Part shown: piece after piece, positions 10,798 to 40,238 of the stretch | Layout of the letters: the number at the start of each line of letters is the position of its first letter | Numbering within the stretch: position 1 is the first letter of the stretch | Assembly: GCA_013820875.1 (NCBI GenBank) | Contig: JACDHS010000029.1 | Coordinates: forward strand, 1-43,839 | Origin: Verrucomicrobiota bacterium | GTDB lineage: Bacteria; Verrucomicrobiota; Verrucomicrobiia; Limisphaerales; JACDHS01 | Reading direction: 5' to 3' | DNA: 43,839 bases | Translations under genes and position numbers: made by a program | The notes under the pieces: model-generated | Database searches by the model: none | What the model was told of the DNA's origin: nothing | The model's input: the letters and a program-made list of their open reading frames with translations, nothing else

Positions 10798-11084
10798 CTT
10801 CTAAATTATTTTGGAGCACAGAAAATTCCTTTTTCCGGCCTCCAAATTATTTTGGAGCATAAGAAATTACTTTTTTCGGCCTCCAAATTATTTTGGAGCA
10901 TAGAAAATTGCTTTCGGAGTGCTCGAAACTATTTTGGAGCGCGAGAAATTACTTTTTTTGGCCCCCAAACTATTTTGGAGCATAGAAAATTACTTTTTTC
11001 GGCCTCCAAATTAATTTGGAGCACCAAAAATTGCTTTCGGAGCTCTCCAAATTATTTTGGAGAACGAAAAAAGCTGGCGGCAGG
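10798..11084. repeat. Tandem array of seven 41-bp units with internal dyads
   Basis: Seven consecutive units, each exactly 41 bases apart, begin at 10798, 10839, 10880, 10921, 10962, 11003 and 11044. The core is CTCCAAATTATTTTGGAG, followed by an AT-rich stretch ending in a run of T and CGG. The arms CTCCAAA and TTTGGAG are intact in units 2, 3, 6 and 7; in unit 6 the whole 18-base core is a perfect palindrome. The array sits in the 626-base gap between convergent genes. No unique spacers exist, so it is not a CRISPR. The rest of the gap shows no other recognisable element. Function is unknown. Confidence 0.95.
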
Positions 11085-22524: not shown

Positions 22525-24263
22525 GTGTCTGGCCGGAAACTCCCAATTTTGGAAACGGGATCGGCTGTGGAGGGGTCTGGCCCGAGCGGCGGCGGGTTGT
22601 TTATCACGCGAGCACGCTCAAATTGTTGAAATTCTCCGGCGATGCCGACACCGCTCCTGTCGGACTGGGCGGGCCGGGTGTGAGCGGCTTCAGCCGGGCG
22701 CTCGCGCCAGCAGTTCCCTCCCGATCATGTGCAGATTGTAGCTCAGCACGCCGTAGCCCACGTAGCGCAGGTATCCTTTGATCCCCACGTCCAGACACCG
22801 GTTCAAGCCGTGATGTTCCAAACTGTTGATTTCGCTTTCCACCGCGCTGTGTTGTTTCCGGAGCGCCACAAATTGCTTTTCACTTTCACGCTCTGTCTCC
22901 GTCGCGTTCTTTTTCCCGCGCTTGGGCATCACCACTACCGGCACATACAAGTTCAACAACGCCCGGTCTTCTTCCCGCGTGAAGCCTTTGTCGAAACTCA
23001 AACTGGCTACGCTGCCCGCGCCGTATCTTCCCAGCAACCGGTCGGCCACCGGCACGCTCCGGTCCACGTCGGCCACGCCCGCCGCCACGTCGTAGTCCTG
23101 GATCAATTGATTCTGGTCGGTCGCGAGCAACAGGCGATGGCCCAGTTCCACGTTCGGTCGTTGCTTGCCTTTTTGAATCCATTCGGTGTGCGGTTCAAAC
23201 AGCGAAAAGACTTTCTCATGCGACGGAATGGTTTCTTCTTTCAACAACCGGCGCTCGACCAGGTCCAGATGCTTGTCGAGCATCCGCTGGAAGTATTCGA
23301 GGGCTTCCCAGTGCGCGAGTTCCACGGGCTGGTCGCACAGGCTCGAAAGACTTTCCCGCACTTTGGCAGAGAGGTCGCGGCCCACGGCCAGGTAATCGCG
23401 CACGGTGCGTTTCATCCGCGCTTCCTTGTTGGGCCCGCCGCGATAAACCACCTGGCTGGCGGCGCGTTCCAGGTTCTTGAGTTGACGCCGCCATTCCTTG
23501 GCTTTGCGCCAGCCGGGCAAGGCGTAGCCGAACTGGTCGCGATATTTCACGATCAAGTCCACGCACTTACGGCCCGCGTCCCACAACAAATTCAAGTCGG
23601 TGGGAAAATGCACGTCGGTTTCCAGCACATAGGTGTCCACTTTGACTTCAAGCGCCGCGACGGGCGCGCCGCCTTTTTTTGCGAACACCTCGCGTCCTGC
23701 GGCGGTGATGCGCGCGTTGATTTGCTGGAGCAGTACGTCGTCGAGCAGCGCGACGTTGTCCCGCAGCGTCTGATGACCGAACATTTTGGACTCGTCATTC
23801 CACGGCGTGGCTGGCAGACCGAGCATCTGGCGCACGAGCATGTCGTAGTTGGCGATGTGTTCCATGCGATCCCAGTCGGCATCCAGGCCGAGGCGCACGA
23901 CGCCCAACACGAGGATTTGCCAGAGGTCCATGCCGGTGCGGCCCGTGGCTTTTTTGCCGGCGAGGAGTTTGGCTTCCAGCAGGGCGAAGATCTCCGCCTT
24001 GAGAGTCGGGTGCATCCAGACCCATTGCAAACCGGCCAGGATCGGCGGCAACTCGTCGCGGCTCTTGAGGGGCAGGCGAATCTTTTCGATGGGTGTGATC
24101 TGGAGGTCGGGCTGGTGCTGGAAGTGATGGCGCATAGCGGCGAATGTTGCAGCTTTAGACACCAAAATCCCCGCCAACATTCAATCACCACCCCAACATT
24201 CGCACCCGCTCATCCACACCAAACCCTCTGCGGACAAGCTCTTTCACGTTGAACGCCGAACAC
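22525..24263 (-). mobile_element. Insertion sequence of 1739 bp with TAATTA target duplication
   Basis: The element has imperfect terminal inverted repeats: GTGTCTGGCCGGAAAC at the left end, and GTGTTCGGCGTTCAAC read from the right end. It carries one transposase gene. TAATTA occurs on both sides (22519-22524 and 24264-24269). Because A and T can be assigned to either side, the duplication may be 4 to 6 bases (AATT to TAATTA). Its G+C content is visibly higher than that of its surroundings, which fits acquisition from outside. It splits an Ig domain of a large secreted-protein gene. Confidence 0.88.
22690..24180 (-). CDS. Transposase (ISNCY/IS1182-like DDE family)
   Basis: This 496-residue DDE-type transposase appears complete. 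Its segment ALEVKVDTYVLETDVHFPTDLN recalls the first catalytic aspartate region of the ISNCY group (pattern DTTVVETNIHYPTD). Further downstream are DYDVAAGVADVDRSVPVAD, LSFDKGFTREED and a C-terminal LEHHGLNRCLDVGIKGYLRYV with the expected glutamate and YxxxxxNLH element. Placement in ISNCY rather than IS1182 is a judgement by eye. ATG at 24180 is used; a second ATG at 24135 is possible. Codon use is strongly GC-rich compared with neighbours. No frame damage is visible, so the element may still be active. Confidence 0.9.
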   Translation of the reverse strand: MLAGILVSKAATFAAMRHHFQHQPDLQITPIEKIRLPLKSRDELPPILAGLQWVWMHPTLKAEIFALLEAKLLAGKKATGRTGMDLWQILVLGVVRLGLDADWDRMEHIANYDMLVRQMLGLPATPWNDESKMFGHQTLRDNVALLDDVLLQQINARITAAGREVFAKKGGAPVAALEVKVDTYVLETDVHFPTDLNLLWDAGRKCVDLIVKYRDQFGYALPGWRKAKEWRRQLKNLERAASQVVYRGGPNKEARMKRTVRDYLAVGRDLSAKVRESLSSLCDQPVELAHWEALEYFQRMLDKHLDLVERRLLKEETIPSHEKVFSLFEPHTEWIQKGKQRPNVELGHRLLLATDQNQLIQDYDVAAGVADVDRSVPVADRLLGRYGAGSVASLSFDKGFTREEDRALLNLYVPVVVMPKRGKKNATETERESEKQFVALRKQHSAVESEINSLEHHGLNRCLDVGIKGYLRYVGYGVLSYNLHMIGRELLARAPG

Positions 24264-26193
24264 TAATTATGAGCGAAGCATTCGTTGCACCTGTCATAAT
24301 CGTTTCGTTGAAAAACCATTGGTAGGAAAGTTCACCACTCCCCACTGCTGACACAAAGAGGTTTAGGTTGTTACCAAGAATCACTGTCTGTGATTGCGGT
24401 TGCTGAACAATGTCGGCAGCCACGCTCAAACATTTTCCAGCAGAACCGGATACCGCAATGGCAGCGATTTCGTTCGTTGTTAACACCCGATTATAAATCG
24501 ACATTTCGTCCATTTGGCCGACAAACGGAGGGAATCCGAATGACTCAGAACTCCCGCTTGGGCGTTGGCCGAGATTCACTGGAAGTGCTGTTTTCGGCGT
24601 AAAGCTTCCAAGGATTTTAGTAGTGACCAGATTGCCACCAATCAGCAACTGGGCGACCCCACTCGGTTTATCGTACGTCACAGCAACATGCTGCCACTGA
24701 TTTGGAAGTATTAGCCCTCCGGATGTGATAATTTGATGATCGCCATCGTTGATGTCTCGAACGTTCGCAGCCAGCGTTCCGGCTACCGAACCCAATCCGC
24801 CGTTGGGCCGTTCATTGATCCAAAGATGCACACCCGTTTTCCCGGAGGCTGCGCAATAATCGATTACTGGCCGCTTGGTTAAACCATCTGTCGGATTAAT
24901 CCATCCTTCAATCGTGAAACTTTGAACGGTGAGATTGCTGGAGGCCGGCACAATCACGTACCCGTCAGTTCCGTTCATGTTGAAGCTGGTTCCGACTTTT
25001 CCTGGAGAAAAACTCACCCCGGCACTCGCTACCCCGTGATTACCACCGACAGAATCTCCTGCATTATCTTCTCCGCGCCACCACGCAACCATTCCGGAAG
25101 CTGGAGACGAACATCCATCAACCTGCAATGAAAACTGCTGCTCGGCGATTTGCTGCTGTGCATCCGCAACCTGAATTGCAAATGAGAAAGTGCCCACCGT
25201 TTGCGGAATGCCGCTTATCACACCACTGGCTGAAAGAGTAAGTCCGGCAGGCAAAGCGTTCGACACCAGTGTATAGGAAAATGGAGCCGCACCCGAAGCA
25301 GTGAGAGTCTGCGTATAACTGTCGCCCAGAATAGCATTGGGAAGCAATCCACCGACCGTAAAATAAATTCCCTGAAAGCATTTTCCTGCGGCACCGGCCT
25401 GGTAAACTGCCGCAATCTCATTGGAGGAGAGCGCACGATTATAAATGGCCAGCTCATCTATCCCCCCAACATATCTTGCCCCGCTTGTTCCATCCTGGCT
25501 CCCACTCGGGCGATACCCGATGTTTAAAGGATAAGCGGTTGCTGGAACAAAATTTGTTCCCAAACTGGCTTGAGCAACGATTGAACTGTTCTTATATAGC
25601 AGGCCCATTCCGGTCGTACGGTTGTAGGACAGGGTCACATGCTGCCACTGCCCTGTTGCCACAACTCCAGAACCCGTCCCAAAAGAATGACTACCTCCGT
25701 TTATATCGCGGATATTCGCGTAGATTGCTCCGGGCACGGTTACGGCTGAGCCGCTCCCAATCCACAAATGAACACCAGCGGAACTTGTTGCTGTAGCAAA
25801 TTCTACGAGCGGCAATGGAGCACTCACGTTCGACGGATTAATCCACGTCTCAATCGTAAAGCTTTGGACATTCAAATTGCTTGAGGCAGGAACGAGGATG
25901 CTGTTGTTGCCGTCCAGATCAAATGCCTGCCCTACCTTGCCTAATGGATAAGCAACTCCATTTGCAGCTCCGTGATTCCCGTTAATCAAATCATTTGCGT
26001 TTCCTTCTCCTTTCCACCACCCCACGATTCCACTTACTGGCGCTACACATCCCGTCACAGCAATCGAAAAAGCTTTTTGTTGAATATTGCTGAGGGCATC
26101 AGTGACTTGAATTGTGAACTCAAAAAAAACCGGCTGTGGGTACTCCGCTAATCGTTCCGGATGATGCGAGGGACAATCCTTCGGGCAGAGCAC
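24264..26193 (-). pseudogene. Middle fragment: two LamG domains and the first half of an Ig domain
   Basis: The real sequence resumes after the A8 tract with FEFTIQVTDALSN. Two LamG domains follow (starting GIVGWWKGEGNAND and GMVAWWRGEDNAGD), with LPAGLTLSASGVISGIPQ between them. An Ig domain beginning IVQQPQSQTVILGNNLNL breaks off after TGATNASLII at the insertion sequence. The apparent stop is inside the element. No start codon with a ribosome-binding site is visible at its upstream end, so it is not expected to be translated alone. Confidence 0.85.
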
Positions 26194-27043
26194 CAGAGAT
26201 CAAACTATATGCAAATGGCGCGCTACCATCCGAGGAAAGTGAGTAGGAGTAGGCGGCGCCACTAGTTCCACCGGGAAGAACCGATGGAGACGTGATTGCC
26301 AGGCTCTTGCATTTTCCCGACGAGCCCGCGGCATACAGGGCCTGCATTTCCGCCAATGTGAGAGCTCGGTTGTAGAATGAGATTTCATCCAGTTGCCCGG
26401 CAAAAAGACTACTGCCGTTCGAACCGACGCAAGGACCGTTAGCTGCCATCAGGTTACCGGAATTCGAAAAATTGTAGATGACCGGCGCATTGGTGAGCGC
26501 ATGCATCACTCCATCCACCCACAATGAAAGGTTTGTTGACGCCCTCCTGAACACAACGTGATGAAAATCCCCATCCGAAATTGAATTAGTGCTGTTCATT
26601 ACGCGAATCGTCGAGCCCGAAAGGTCGTTCTCCACTTCCAAACCCACCACTCCATTCCCATCCATGGTGATGTTCCAGTAGCTACCGTTCCCGCATGTTT
26701 GCCGTTTGCTCAAAATGTAAACTCCACCTGCTTTCGTCTGAGATATTTTCATCCAAAGCTCGACGGTGAAATCATTTGTTCCGAAGTTCCCGGCGGTTGT
26801 TCCGAATGTGGCGTAATCATTTATCCCGTCGAAACTAAACGCCTGTCCCACTTTGCCAGAAGCAAAGGTAGCTCCATTGTGGAGCGTCCCTTTAACACCG
26901 GTCACCACATCGTTGGTGTGACCATCGGCAGGCCACCAGTTCACCAATCCGGATGGAGCGGGAAGACAGCTCTGCGCGACTGCTTTGTGTTGACCGAAGA
27001 GAGCCAGGATGGCGAGAAGGAGGACTGCGGTTGTTTTTATCAT
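26120..27043 (-). pseudogene. 5' fragment: signal peptide and first LamG domain
   Basis: The first 307 residues start MIKTTAVLLLAILALFGQ with a likely cleavage after AVAQ. A LamG-like domain follows, beginning PSGLVNWWPADGHTND and containing FDGINDYATFG and LDEISFYNRALTLAEMQALY. An Ig-like segment then reads LPEGLSLASSGTISGVPT before the frame runs into a stop at the A8 tract. AAGGGAAA lies about eight bases ahead of the ATG and is a plausible ribosome-binding site. Taken alone it would be secreted but truncated. Confidence 0.85.
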
Positions 27044-27296
27044 TTGATGTTTCCCTTTAGAATTTCTTACGCCTGTAATCTGAACAGATGATGTAAGCGG
27101 CTCATTTGACCCCCGTTTGGACTCTTCTTCAACACTGAACTCTCAGTTATTTTGAGTAGGCATATCCATTAGGCGGAGAAAATCTTTAAGTTTTGCGTTC
27201 GATCGCAGGTCTGTAATCAGCCCTTCGGGAACCTTTCTGATCTGGCAGAATTCACTCGATCTCTTTTTTAAAAGCCCCTTTCACCCGAGCTTTTCT

Positions 27297-27590
27297 GGAA
27301 CATTTTGATACCCGTCTCATCTCGGGAGGCTCTTTTTTGGAACGTTTCGATGCCCACCTCATCTCGGGAGGCTCTTTTTTGAAACGTTCCGATGCTCGTC
27401 TCACCTCGGAAGGTTCTTTTTTGAAACGTTTCGATGCTCGTCTCACCTCGGGAGGCTCTTTTTTGAAACGTTTCGATGCCCGTCTCACCTCGGGAGGCTC
27501 TTTTTTGAAACGTTTCGATGCCCGCCTCATCTCGGGAGACTCTTTTTTGGAACGTTTTGGTGCCTGTCGCAGGTCGTGGAGCTTCTTTCT
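27297..27590. repeat. Tandem array of seven 42-bp units with GAAACGTTTC dyads
   Basis: Seven units of exactly 42 bases begin at 27297, 27339, 27381, 27423, 27465, 27507 and 27549. The consensus runs GAAACGTTTCGATGCCCGTC, then TCACCTCGGGAGGCTCTTTTTT. GAAACGTTTC is a perfect ten-base palindrome and is intact in units 4, 5 and 6; the outer units are more diverged, and a degenerate copy may precede the first. Because 42 is a multiple of three, both strands stay open and encode 14-residue repeats (for example KRFDARLTSGGSFL on the plus strand). The array lies between the divergent starts of the LamG gene and the fibronectin gene. Confidence 0.95.
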
Positions 27591-28045
27591 GAGCGTTGCG
27601 GGGGCAATTTTACCTGAAAATATTTGTTTTTTGATTCGGGGGTTAAATCATTCAGGTACAACAGTTAACATCCCGAACATTTGATCAAATCCGGCACTTC
27701 GCAACATCGCTTAATCGGCAGATCTATCTTATCAACAACAGTTTACGCTGCATTCATTGCAAATCTCCACCAAACAATCCCTCTTATTTTGGCCCCAAAA
27801 TAAAAAAACTTTTACGCATGAAACTCAATAAAGACGGGCCTCCGGAGGGCGGAGGAAATTTGTGGACAAATTTTCCCCTTATGTGACCGGTGCCGTTTAT
27901 GTGAAAAAATACCCGATTCGATTATCGAGTCATTAACCGTCCGGTGAAACGGACAAAAACGGAGTGGAAGAGGCGGATGTTTGAATGGGCCGATTAGTGT
28001 CTGTTGGCATTAGCGACCTCCACTTCGTGCAGAAAGAGAGTCATT
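27591..28045. other. Non-coding stretch with five short dyads
   Basis: No gene is visible in this stretch. It holds five inverted repeats close together: TTATTTTGG/CCAAAATAA (27784-27803), CCTCCG/CGGAGG (27839-27855), AAATTTGT/ACAAATTT (27856-27873), TCGAT/ATCGA (27918-27928) and GTCCG/CGGAC (27939-27954). The last two lie within about 130 bases of the fibronectin gene start, so they could be part of its leader. I cannot match the set to a known riboswitch. An AGAGAG ribosome-binding site is present just ahead of the start at 28046. Confidence 0.5.
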
Positions 28046-28960
28046 ATGAAAAATGCAATTCCGAAGTCCACTTCTGGTCTTCTCGGCGCTTCTGCCGAGA
28101 TGATCGGTGGTGCGACCCAACATGGCGCGGCGATCGGCCTGGTCCGAAACACCGCGGTTCACCTCACGACAGACCGAACGGCGCTCGTCACAAAGCGGGA
28201 CGCCTATGAAGCCGCCAGAACTGTCCTGACAGATAACAAGGACGCCCTGCAAGCCGCGACAGATGCCGGGCACGCCTTCATCACACAAACGCGTGATCTG
28301 TTGAAGCCTCACCTTGGATCGCGTTATTCCTCAGCGTGGGATGTCACCGGGTTGATCAGATCACTGCAAGTGAGCAGCATTCCGATGAAACAGTTGCCTG
28401 TTCTGGAGGCAATGGAGTCGTTCCTGACAGACAATCCGAACCGGGAAAATGCTGAGTTAAACGTCACGGCAGTTCGGGCGGGCGAACTGGCGACCACAGT
28501 CACGGCAGCGCACAACACGGTCAATGCGCAGAAAACCCAGGTGAAAACGGCCCACAACGTCCGGATCGCAGCGGCGAAGGTTTTGATGAAGCGCCTCGCC
28601 GACCTTGTGGCCGAGCTCAAACAGGCGATGCCCGCGCTGGATGAACGTTGGCTCGCATTCGGCCTGAAGATGCCCGGCACCAAGGAACGCCCTGCCACGC
28701 CGACAAACATCATTGCGGTCTTGATCGGAGCCAATGCGGTGTCCGTGAAGTGGAGTGCCGCGGCACGCGCGGAATATTACCGCGTGTGGAAGCGGGTCGT
28801 AGGCTTAGACGACGTCCTGATTGCGGTCGGAAGTCCGGCGGACCTGGACATCATCCTGGAAGGACTGCCTTCCAACAGCACAGTGGAGATCGCCGTTTCG
28901 GCGATGAACAACGGTGGCGAAAGCGCCCTGAGTGTCCTTGCGACCATCCAAACCTTGTAA
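28046..28960 (+). CDS. Fibronectin type III-containing protein of unknown function
   Basis: This 304-residue protein has a long helical N-terminal part (about 40-210) rich in alanine, threonine and charged residues, with GELATTVTAAHNTVNAQKTQ as a typical piece. A fibronectin type III domain (about 220-304) contains AVSVKWSAAARAEYYRVWKR and STVEIAVSAMNNGGES. There is no clear signal peptide, although the glycine/alanine-rich region near residues 10-30 is mildly hydrophobic. The ATG at 28046 has an AGAGAG Shine-Dalgarno seven bases upstream. A strong terminator follows, so the gene is monocistronic. The function is unknown; the helical part could be a phage- or device-associated structural domain, but no neighbour supports that. 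Confidence 0.8.
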   Translation: MKNAIPKSTSGLLGASAEMIGGATQHGAAIGLVRNTAVHLTTDRTALVTKRDAYEAARTVLTDNKDALQAATDAGHAFITQTRDLLKPHLGSRYSSAWDVTGLIRSLQVSSIPMKQLPVLEAMESFLTDNPNRENAELNVTAVRAGELATTVTAAHNTVNAQKTQVKTAHNVRIAAAKVLMKRLADLVAELKQAMPALDERWLAFGLKMPGTKERPATPTNIIAVLIGANAVSVKWSAAARAEYYRVWKRVVGLDDVLIAVGSPADLDIILEGLPSNSTVEIAVSAMNNGGESALSVLATIQTL

Positions 28961-40013: not shown

Positions 40014-40238
40014 GGATTCTGGATTCTGGATTCTGGATTCTGGATACGGGATGCGGTCAAGTGACCTGGCTACTGAATACGAGGCGTGTCGGCAGTGAAC
40101 GAGATGGCCGTGAGACCACCCTCAGTGCATCAATTTCAGTGCATCAATAATGGTGCAGACGCTCGCAGAGGCAGTGTTCGGTGTCCAGATCCAGCATCCA
40201 GTATCCAGCATCCAGAATCCCGCATCCCGTATCCAGCC
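40014..40238. repeat. Pair of inverted heptamer arrays
   Basis: The 350-base gap after hisF holds two facing tandem arrays. The first (40014-40055) is six 7-base units, four GGATTCT, then GGATACG and GGATGCG. The second (40189-40237) is seven units of the type ATCCAGC/ATCCAGT/ATCCCGT, which is the complementary pattern. Together they can form a long imperfect hairpin. A stretch of 130 bases without recognised content separates them. Arrays of this ATCCAGA type are common extragenic elements. Confidence 0.85.

Follow-up and report, generated by a model that had tools for sequence, protein, structure and literature searches.

The genome of this Verrucomicrobiota bacterium carries a class of intergenic tandem arrays that share one narrow repeat period, 41-43 bp, across unrelated sequences. 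The arrays recur directly upstream of an undescribed gene family, distant relatives included, and their sequence is replaced in place. Repeat families are normally recognised through a common sequence; this class is visible by its period alone, and sequence-based surveys would therefore miss it. No description of such arrays was found in the open-access literature, and their novelty holds within that scope. If the period is what is selected, these genomes would serve as a natural test of which properties of DNA, other than its sequence, a bacterial chromosome responds to. The tentative reading placed first here is that an array is a cis-acting, satellite-like scaffold with a spacing of four helical turns, whose sequence is free to change.

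The array and its surroundings

The window, the whole stretch of 43,839 nucleotides that was analysed, is contig C14 of the genome designated G000 (5.7 Mb in 239 contigs). Tandem Repeats Finder places the array at 27290-27568 (period 42, 6.6 copies, 89% match, 0% indels, score 404), and a worn seventh and last unit carries it to about 27590. The array (27290-27590, assigned to neither strand) has the consensus CTTTTTTGAAACGTTTCGATGCCCGTCTCACCTCGGGAGGCT. The palindrome GAAACGTTTC is exact in three of the seven units, and the remaining units have GGAACATTTT, GGAACGTTTC, GAAACGTTCC or GGAACGTTTT in its position, so the seven-unit, 42-bp array with palindromes that had been described from the letters alone is real. 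Its units are contiguous, head to tail, and not split by unique spacers as CRISPR repeats are. A related array with 86% identity lies between another gene pair (C109:17673-17938); this copy elsewhere in the genome, together with the abundance of arrays of similar period described below, places the reported array far beyond chance. A blastn search of 57 further genomes from the order gives no match to its DNA sequence, and Rfam has no match in the window or at 12 loci.

As had been noted, divergent starts flank the array, at 27043 (-) and 28046 (+). The right-hand open reading frame as listed starts at 28004, and the start taken here is the methionine at 28046, as in homologues. The left-hand frame (26120-27043, -) encodes LamG (Laminin_G_3) and He_PIG domains. 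ORFs 24244-26193 and 26120-27043 (-) overlap in different frames and both have LamG and He_PIG, so they may be a single gene split by a frameshift or by an assembly error.

The second, sequence-unrelated array expected in the same window is present at 10803-11072 (neither strand, 6.6 units), with a period of 41 rather than 42. It belongs to another sequence family, related to arrays at L067:4532-4798, L079:371-637 and L084:18943-19209. Those three have the same length (267 bp) and a period of 41, and lie at different loci within near-identical non-coding stretches of 530-850 bp, which make up a dispersed repeat with an array inside it. Short arrays of 7-bp units (GGATTCT, TCCAGCA and others) form a second class, found in the window at 40014-40052 and 40184-40237 and also at L195:10006-10245, L213:8275-8394 and L206:11483-11535. 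Two of the 7-bp unit types are common to the window and L195, and some of these arrays lie directly 3' of genes of the family described below. A CRISPR-like array with 61-bp spacing and a repeat of about CGGACCATCCCCACGTGTGTGGGGAGAAC occurs on contig C160 of G000 (L077:14242-16532).

A genome-wide class defined by period

Within a 746-kb sample of G000, Tandem Repeats Finder yields 49 merged arrays, 38 of them with periods of 41-43 bp (41 in 22 arrays, 42 in 13, 43 in three); none of the 49 has a period of 20-40 or 44-60 bp. Extrapolation gives about 290 arrays of 41-43 bp per genome, a rough figure because the sample was drawn partly from the beginnings of contigs, and array counts vary with the thresholds of the program. 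Gene calls are our own and hexamer-based, and the genomes are mostly drafts. In 167 kb of G001, a genome of the same family, six of seven arrays have a period of 41 and the remaining one has 21/42. No such arrays occur in 400 kb of two complete genomes from other families (G065 and G086) or in 61 kb of G017. Isolated 42-bp arrays in G017, G152, G243 and G273 were met partly because the repeat query led there. In further families of the order the same query located arrays with periods of 21, 42, 63 or 84, at L058:2054-2665 (G152), L057:2726-2933 (G243), L059:2507-2772 (G273), L060:2493-2792 (G087) and L053:7251-7465 (G017); none of these five loci has a match to the gene family downstream of the reported array.

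The sequences themselves are diverse. The 61 arrays from G000 and G001 fall into 39 sequence families, and at least 30 sequence-unrelated families are represented among the 41-43 bp arrays of the G000 sample. When each of the 39 families is counted by a single array, the periods are 40 (two families), 41 (22), 42 (12) and 43 (three), and the period is mostly kept even in low-identity arrays (64-72%). Most of the arrays are intergenic (33 of 38 are below 20% coding, against 10.5% under random placement), and they are almost confined to gaps longer than about 500 bp, with no strong preference for gene orientation in G000.

One alternative is a neutral or selfish satellite. On that account slippage, template switching or rolling-circle copying, advancing by a fixed step, fills roomy intergenic gaps with functionless repeats, which lie near the gene only since its upstream gaps are long. 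The lack of a strong orientation preference in G000 favours it, as do the dispersal of one array family as near-identical non-coding stretches of 530-850 bp and the changes between units of the reported array, which are mostly transitions.

Coding potential

The original prediction also held that the period keeps both strands open, so that 14-residue repeats could be translated. The first half stands, with one open frame per strand in both the reported array and its 86% relative, as any 42-bp repeat allows, and these frames are what speaks for a repetitive 14-residue peptide encoded on one strand. The second half fails. Comparison of 13 units from the reported array and its relative gives 48 substitutions, spread 16/18/14 over the codon positions, synonymous changes are near expectation in all six frames, and Pfam has no match for either array ORF. 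Sister arrays mostly have a period of 41, the commonest class, and at that period the reading frame is broken. A coding repeat is thus refuted at the level of the class, by the absence of codon-position bias and the predominance of period 41; the reported array is non-coding, and a peptide product is highly improbable. A match in Candidatus Scybalocola (L083) was set aside, as its unit sequence suggests a coding coiled-coil repeat.

The downstream gene family

The gene to the right of the array (28046-28960, +) encodes a protein of 304 aa, for which AlphaFold2 predicts a helical bundle (residues 9-205) followed by a C-terminal fibronectin type III (fn3) domain, with a mean pLDDT of 96. The family has about 50 matches in G000 and 75 in G001. 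G003, G004, G017 and G021 each have one to five, those in G007 and G022 are weak or broken, and further full-length homologues occur in G553, G385 and G331. The N-terminus is variable and the C-terminus more conserved. Pfam detects chiefly fn3, in 29 of 45 members, and in PHROGs the fn3 part matches tail proteins. NCBIfam and PADLOC have no match for the family, no toxin match was found in Pfam or NCBIfam, and no Pfam transposase match occurs among 45 members. Fold searches covered the helical bundle and fn3 together; their lists are filled by fn3 matches, with no ToxN match among them. The 304-aa protein has no match in 72,556 plasmid records, and a viral or plasmid origin of the gene was rejected, since phages, plasmids and viral contigs gave nothing similar. 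The family belongs to no specific described family. With about 50-75 paralogues per genome, for which Pfam offers only the generic fn3 and for which NCBIfam, PADLOC and (for the leader) Rfam have no match, it is itself undescribed.

Association of arrays with the gene

For 53 homologues the flank extends to 700 bp or more; a 41-43 bp array lies upstream of 27 of them and downstream of none. Seen from the arrays, 24 of 77 in G000 and G001 have a family match within 2 kb, all 24 on the 5' side (one of them, L118, is a short fn3-only match), and the distance from array to gene ranges from 139 to about 1100 bp. In the G000 sample, which was drawn without regard to the gene, 35 of the 38 arrays are of the solo kind, with no family gene within 2 kb. 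Decayed gene copies beside solo arrays were not found in the 2-kb flanks of 40 of the genome's own 54 arrays.

That the majority of arrays are solo favours a neutral satellite, as does array occupancy, which grows with gap length for all genes; the gaps upstream of the helical bundle and fn3 gene are long. Within G000 alone the link between array and gene is weak evidence, since long gaps generally hold arrays. Stronger evidence comes from homologues outside the bacterial family of G000: of the seven full-length homologues in G003, G004, G017 and G021, which represent three further families in the order, six are preceded on their 5' side by a 41/42-bp array (L166, L168, L169, L174, L175 and L176). 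A neutral process fits this poorly, since the 61 kb of G017 and the 400 kb of G065 and G086 are without any array. The proposal that the reported array could influence both neighbouring genes is accordingly retained in part: position matters for the right-hand gene, where arrays recur 5' of homologues and never 3', but no link of an array to the left-hand gene was shown.

Turnover at a fixed place

Close paralogues (89-91% protein identity) have array sequence in common. Pairs whose proteins are 86, 80 and 60% identical, however, have essentially unrelated units (scores of 0.26, 0.24 and 0.15, with the 99% point of the null at 0.26), while the period is kept and the gap between the gene and the near edge of the array measures 505/633, 307/303 and 672/672 bp. 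Slight unit similarity persists in some of the pairs near 70% protein identity, which is consistent with turnover in place. Since diverged pairs hold distance and period with unrelated units, it is period and place that are conserved and not sequence, and the comparison of homologous intergenic regions proposed at the outset thus yields conservation of position and period without conservation of the repeat. A fixed place and period with changed sequence are hard to obtain from a neutral satellite without constraint or a site-specific mechanism.

Structure of the repeat units

Although the sequences differ, the units have structural tendencies in common. In 17 of 45 arrays the signal of A peaks at the fourth harmonic of the period (10.4 bp), and in 13 that of purine does. 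Predicted curvature is above that of unit shuffles (z +0.79 +- 0.18, with provisional curvature parameters), predicted fold energy is lower than in unit shuffles (z -1.63 +- 0.27), and whole-unit dyad symmetry is raised on average (z +1.83 +- 0.29 over 39 families). Dyad symmetry and the 10.4-bp signal stand out against shuffles or against the other harmonics, which again tells against a neutral satellite, and that explanation is considered rather unlikely overall.

Recurring at even intervals on the same side of the helix, the units would offer a scaffold for the cooperative binding of a protein, which may be of the nucleoid or regulatory kind or else a regulator belonging to the gene family itself. 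The units would be kept alike by unequal exchange or gene conversion, with fast sequence turnover as the result, and the period would be held by the spacing that the bound complex requires. An array beside the gene would set the expression of that gene, and solo arrays would serve the same role elsewhere, for example as architectural sites. The scaffold is supported by the period peak, the 10.4-bp signal, curvature, fold energy, dyad symmetry, intergenic location, the 5' link to the gene and turnover. Against it, helical phasing alone leaves the absence of 31- and 52-bp periods unexplained, 35 of the 38 sampled arrays stand without a family gene, and the link in G000 is confounded by gap length. 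Conservation in palindromic stem columns barely exceeds that in other columns (9.3% mismatches versus 10.9%), and the reported array itself is without whole-unit dyad symmetry (z -0.42).

The better folding of units than of shuffles could also reflect RNA. In a repeat-RNA module like type III toxin-antitoxin systems, transcribed array units would bind or restrain the protein encoded downstream. Changes in stems on the gene strand lean towards G-U over A-C (40 versus 22, p 0.03, relatedness uncorrected), as such a module would have it, but the lean vanishes over all arrays. Terminator-like units (a hairpin with a T run) number three strands over the 39 families, against 2.4 expected from shuffles, and the reported array accounts for one weak match on the + strand; a cluster of intrinsic terminators is ruled out on these counts.

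Leaders between array and gene

The 5' leader of the window gene (27780-27970, +) holds hairpins, and its DNA is 81-89% identical to the leaders of L203, L204, L205 and L201, behind which the proteins are just 40-42% identical to the window protein. Its single-sequence fold is no better than shuffles (z -0.04), and it differs from the leader in G001. There, an 86-nt RNA with a three-way junction and covariation lies between array and gene: both partners have changed in 10 of the 28 pairs, pairing holds in 95% of cells against 33-52% in slid controls, and the column-shuffle z is -10.6, statistics that are favoured by an alignment fitted to the structure. The model finds 48 copies in G001 (for example L223:4063-4149, +, and L217:3470-3555, -) and one in G000 (C1:32650-32745, -), the latter outside the first training set. 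When coordinates are compared by eye, 44 of the 48 G001 copies precede a family gene by no more than about 350 nt. With strong covariation and without an Rfam match, this leader element is an undescribed structured RNA.

Leader hairpins are followed by a CTGTCATAAT-like sequence and not by a T run, and no terminator-like site occurs on the + strand between the window array and its gene. A long palindrome followed by a CTGTCATAAT-like sequence occurs four times in about 1 Mb (L091:12786, -; L194:2565, +; L196:13092, -; L200:6135, +), in each case directly upstream of a family gene; the two parts are possibly an operator and a -10 element.

The structured leader on G001 genes favours a repeat-RNA module, as does the similar layout of a short-repeat array, a palindromic hairpin and a protein gene. 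The 304-aa helical bundle with fn3, as predicted, is nevertheless unlike the small type III endoribonucleases, the hairpins have no T run, terminator-like units are not enriched over shuffles, the distance from array to gene is variable, most arrays are solo, and there is no match to a defence family or in Rfam. The repeat-RNA module is judged unlikely, below the neutral or selfish satellite, and both rank behind the cis-acting scaffold, itself held at somewhat less than an even chance. A broader proposal, that repeat length is selected rather than sequence and that the arrays form an undescribed, fast-evolving recognition module together with the many-copy helical bundle and fn3 family and the structured RNA leader, is likewise doubtful, at roughly a one-in-three standing.

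Comparison with known systems

Bacterial minisatellites (VNTR, MIRU) are likewise intergenic tandem repeats with tens of bases per unit. Their period varies between loci; here a single narrow period extends across unrelated sequences and a gene family is linked to it. In eukaryotic satellite DNA, unit length is conserved and sequence turns over rapidly by concerted evolution. The present arrays, by contrast, are short (about 280 bp), dispersed and bacterial, and partly tied to one gene family. REP/BIME elements with RAYT resemble them in being many intergenic, palindrome-bearing repeats, some tied to a gene family. However, REPs share sequence, while the 61 arrays comprise 39 unrelated families sharing period alone, and the linked gene family has no Pfam match to a Y1-type transposase.

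Type III toxin-antitoxin systems (ToxIN, CptIN, TenpIN) also combine a short tandem array, a palindrome and a protein gene, and 27 of the 53 homologues have the array upstream. Their repeats diverge in sequence and copy number with monomer length conserved (34-36 nt in 2.8-5.5 copies; PMC5086642), a likeness that counts for the repeat-RNA module. The array layout is thus present, but the Rho-independent terminator between array and gene is absent. The systems further differ in that the protein here has another predicted architecture, the distance is longer and variable, and each genome has dozens of gene copies and hundreds of solo arrays.

The working idea has a parallel in plasmid iterons and partition centromeres. 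In Rep/iteron, ParR-parC and TubR-tubC systems, arrays of direct repeats beside a gene are spaced at whole helical turns and bound cooperatively by a protein. The present arrays share the direct repeats, the place beside a gene and the whole-turn spacing, and cooperative binding is what the scaffold reading would ask of them. They depart from these systems in their longer units, in the lack of a protein match among plasmid records and in a copy number on the scale of the chromosome.
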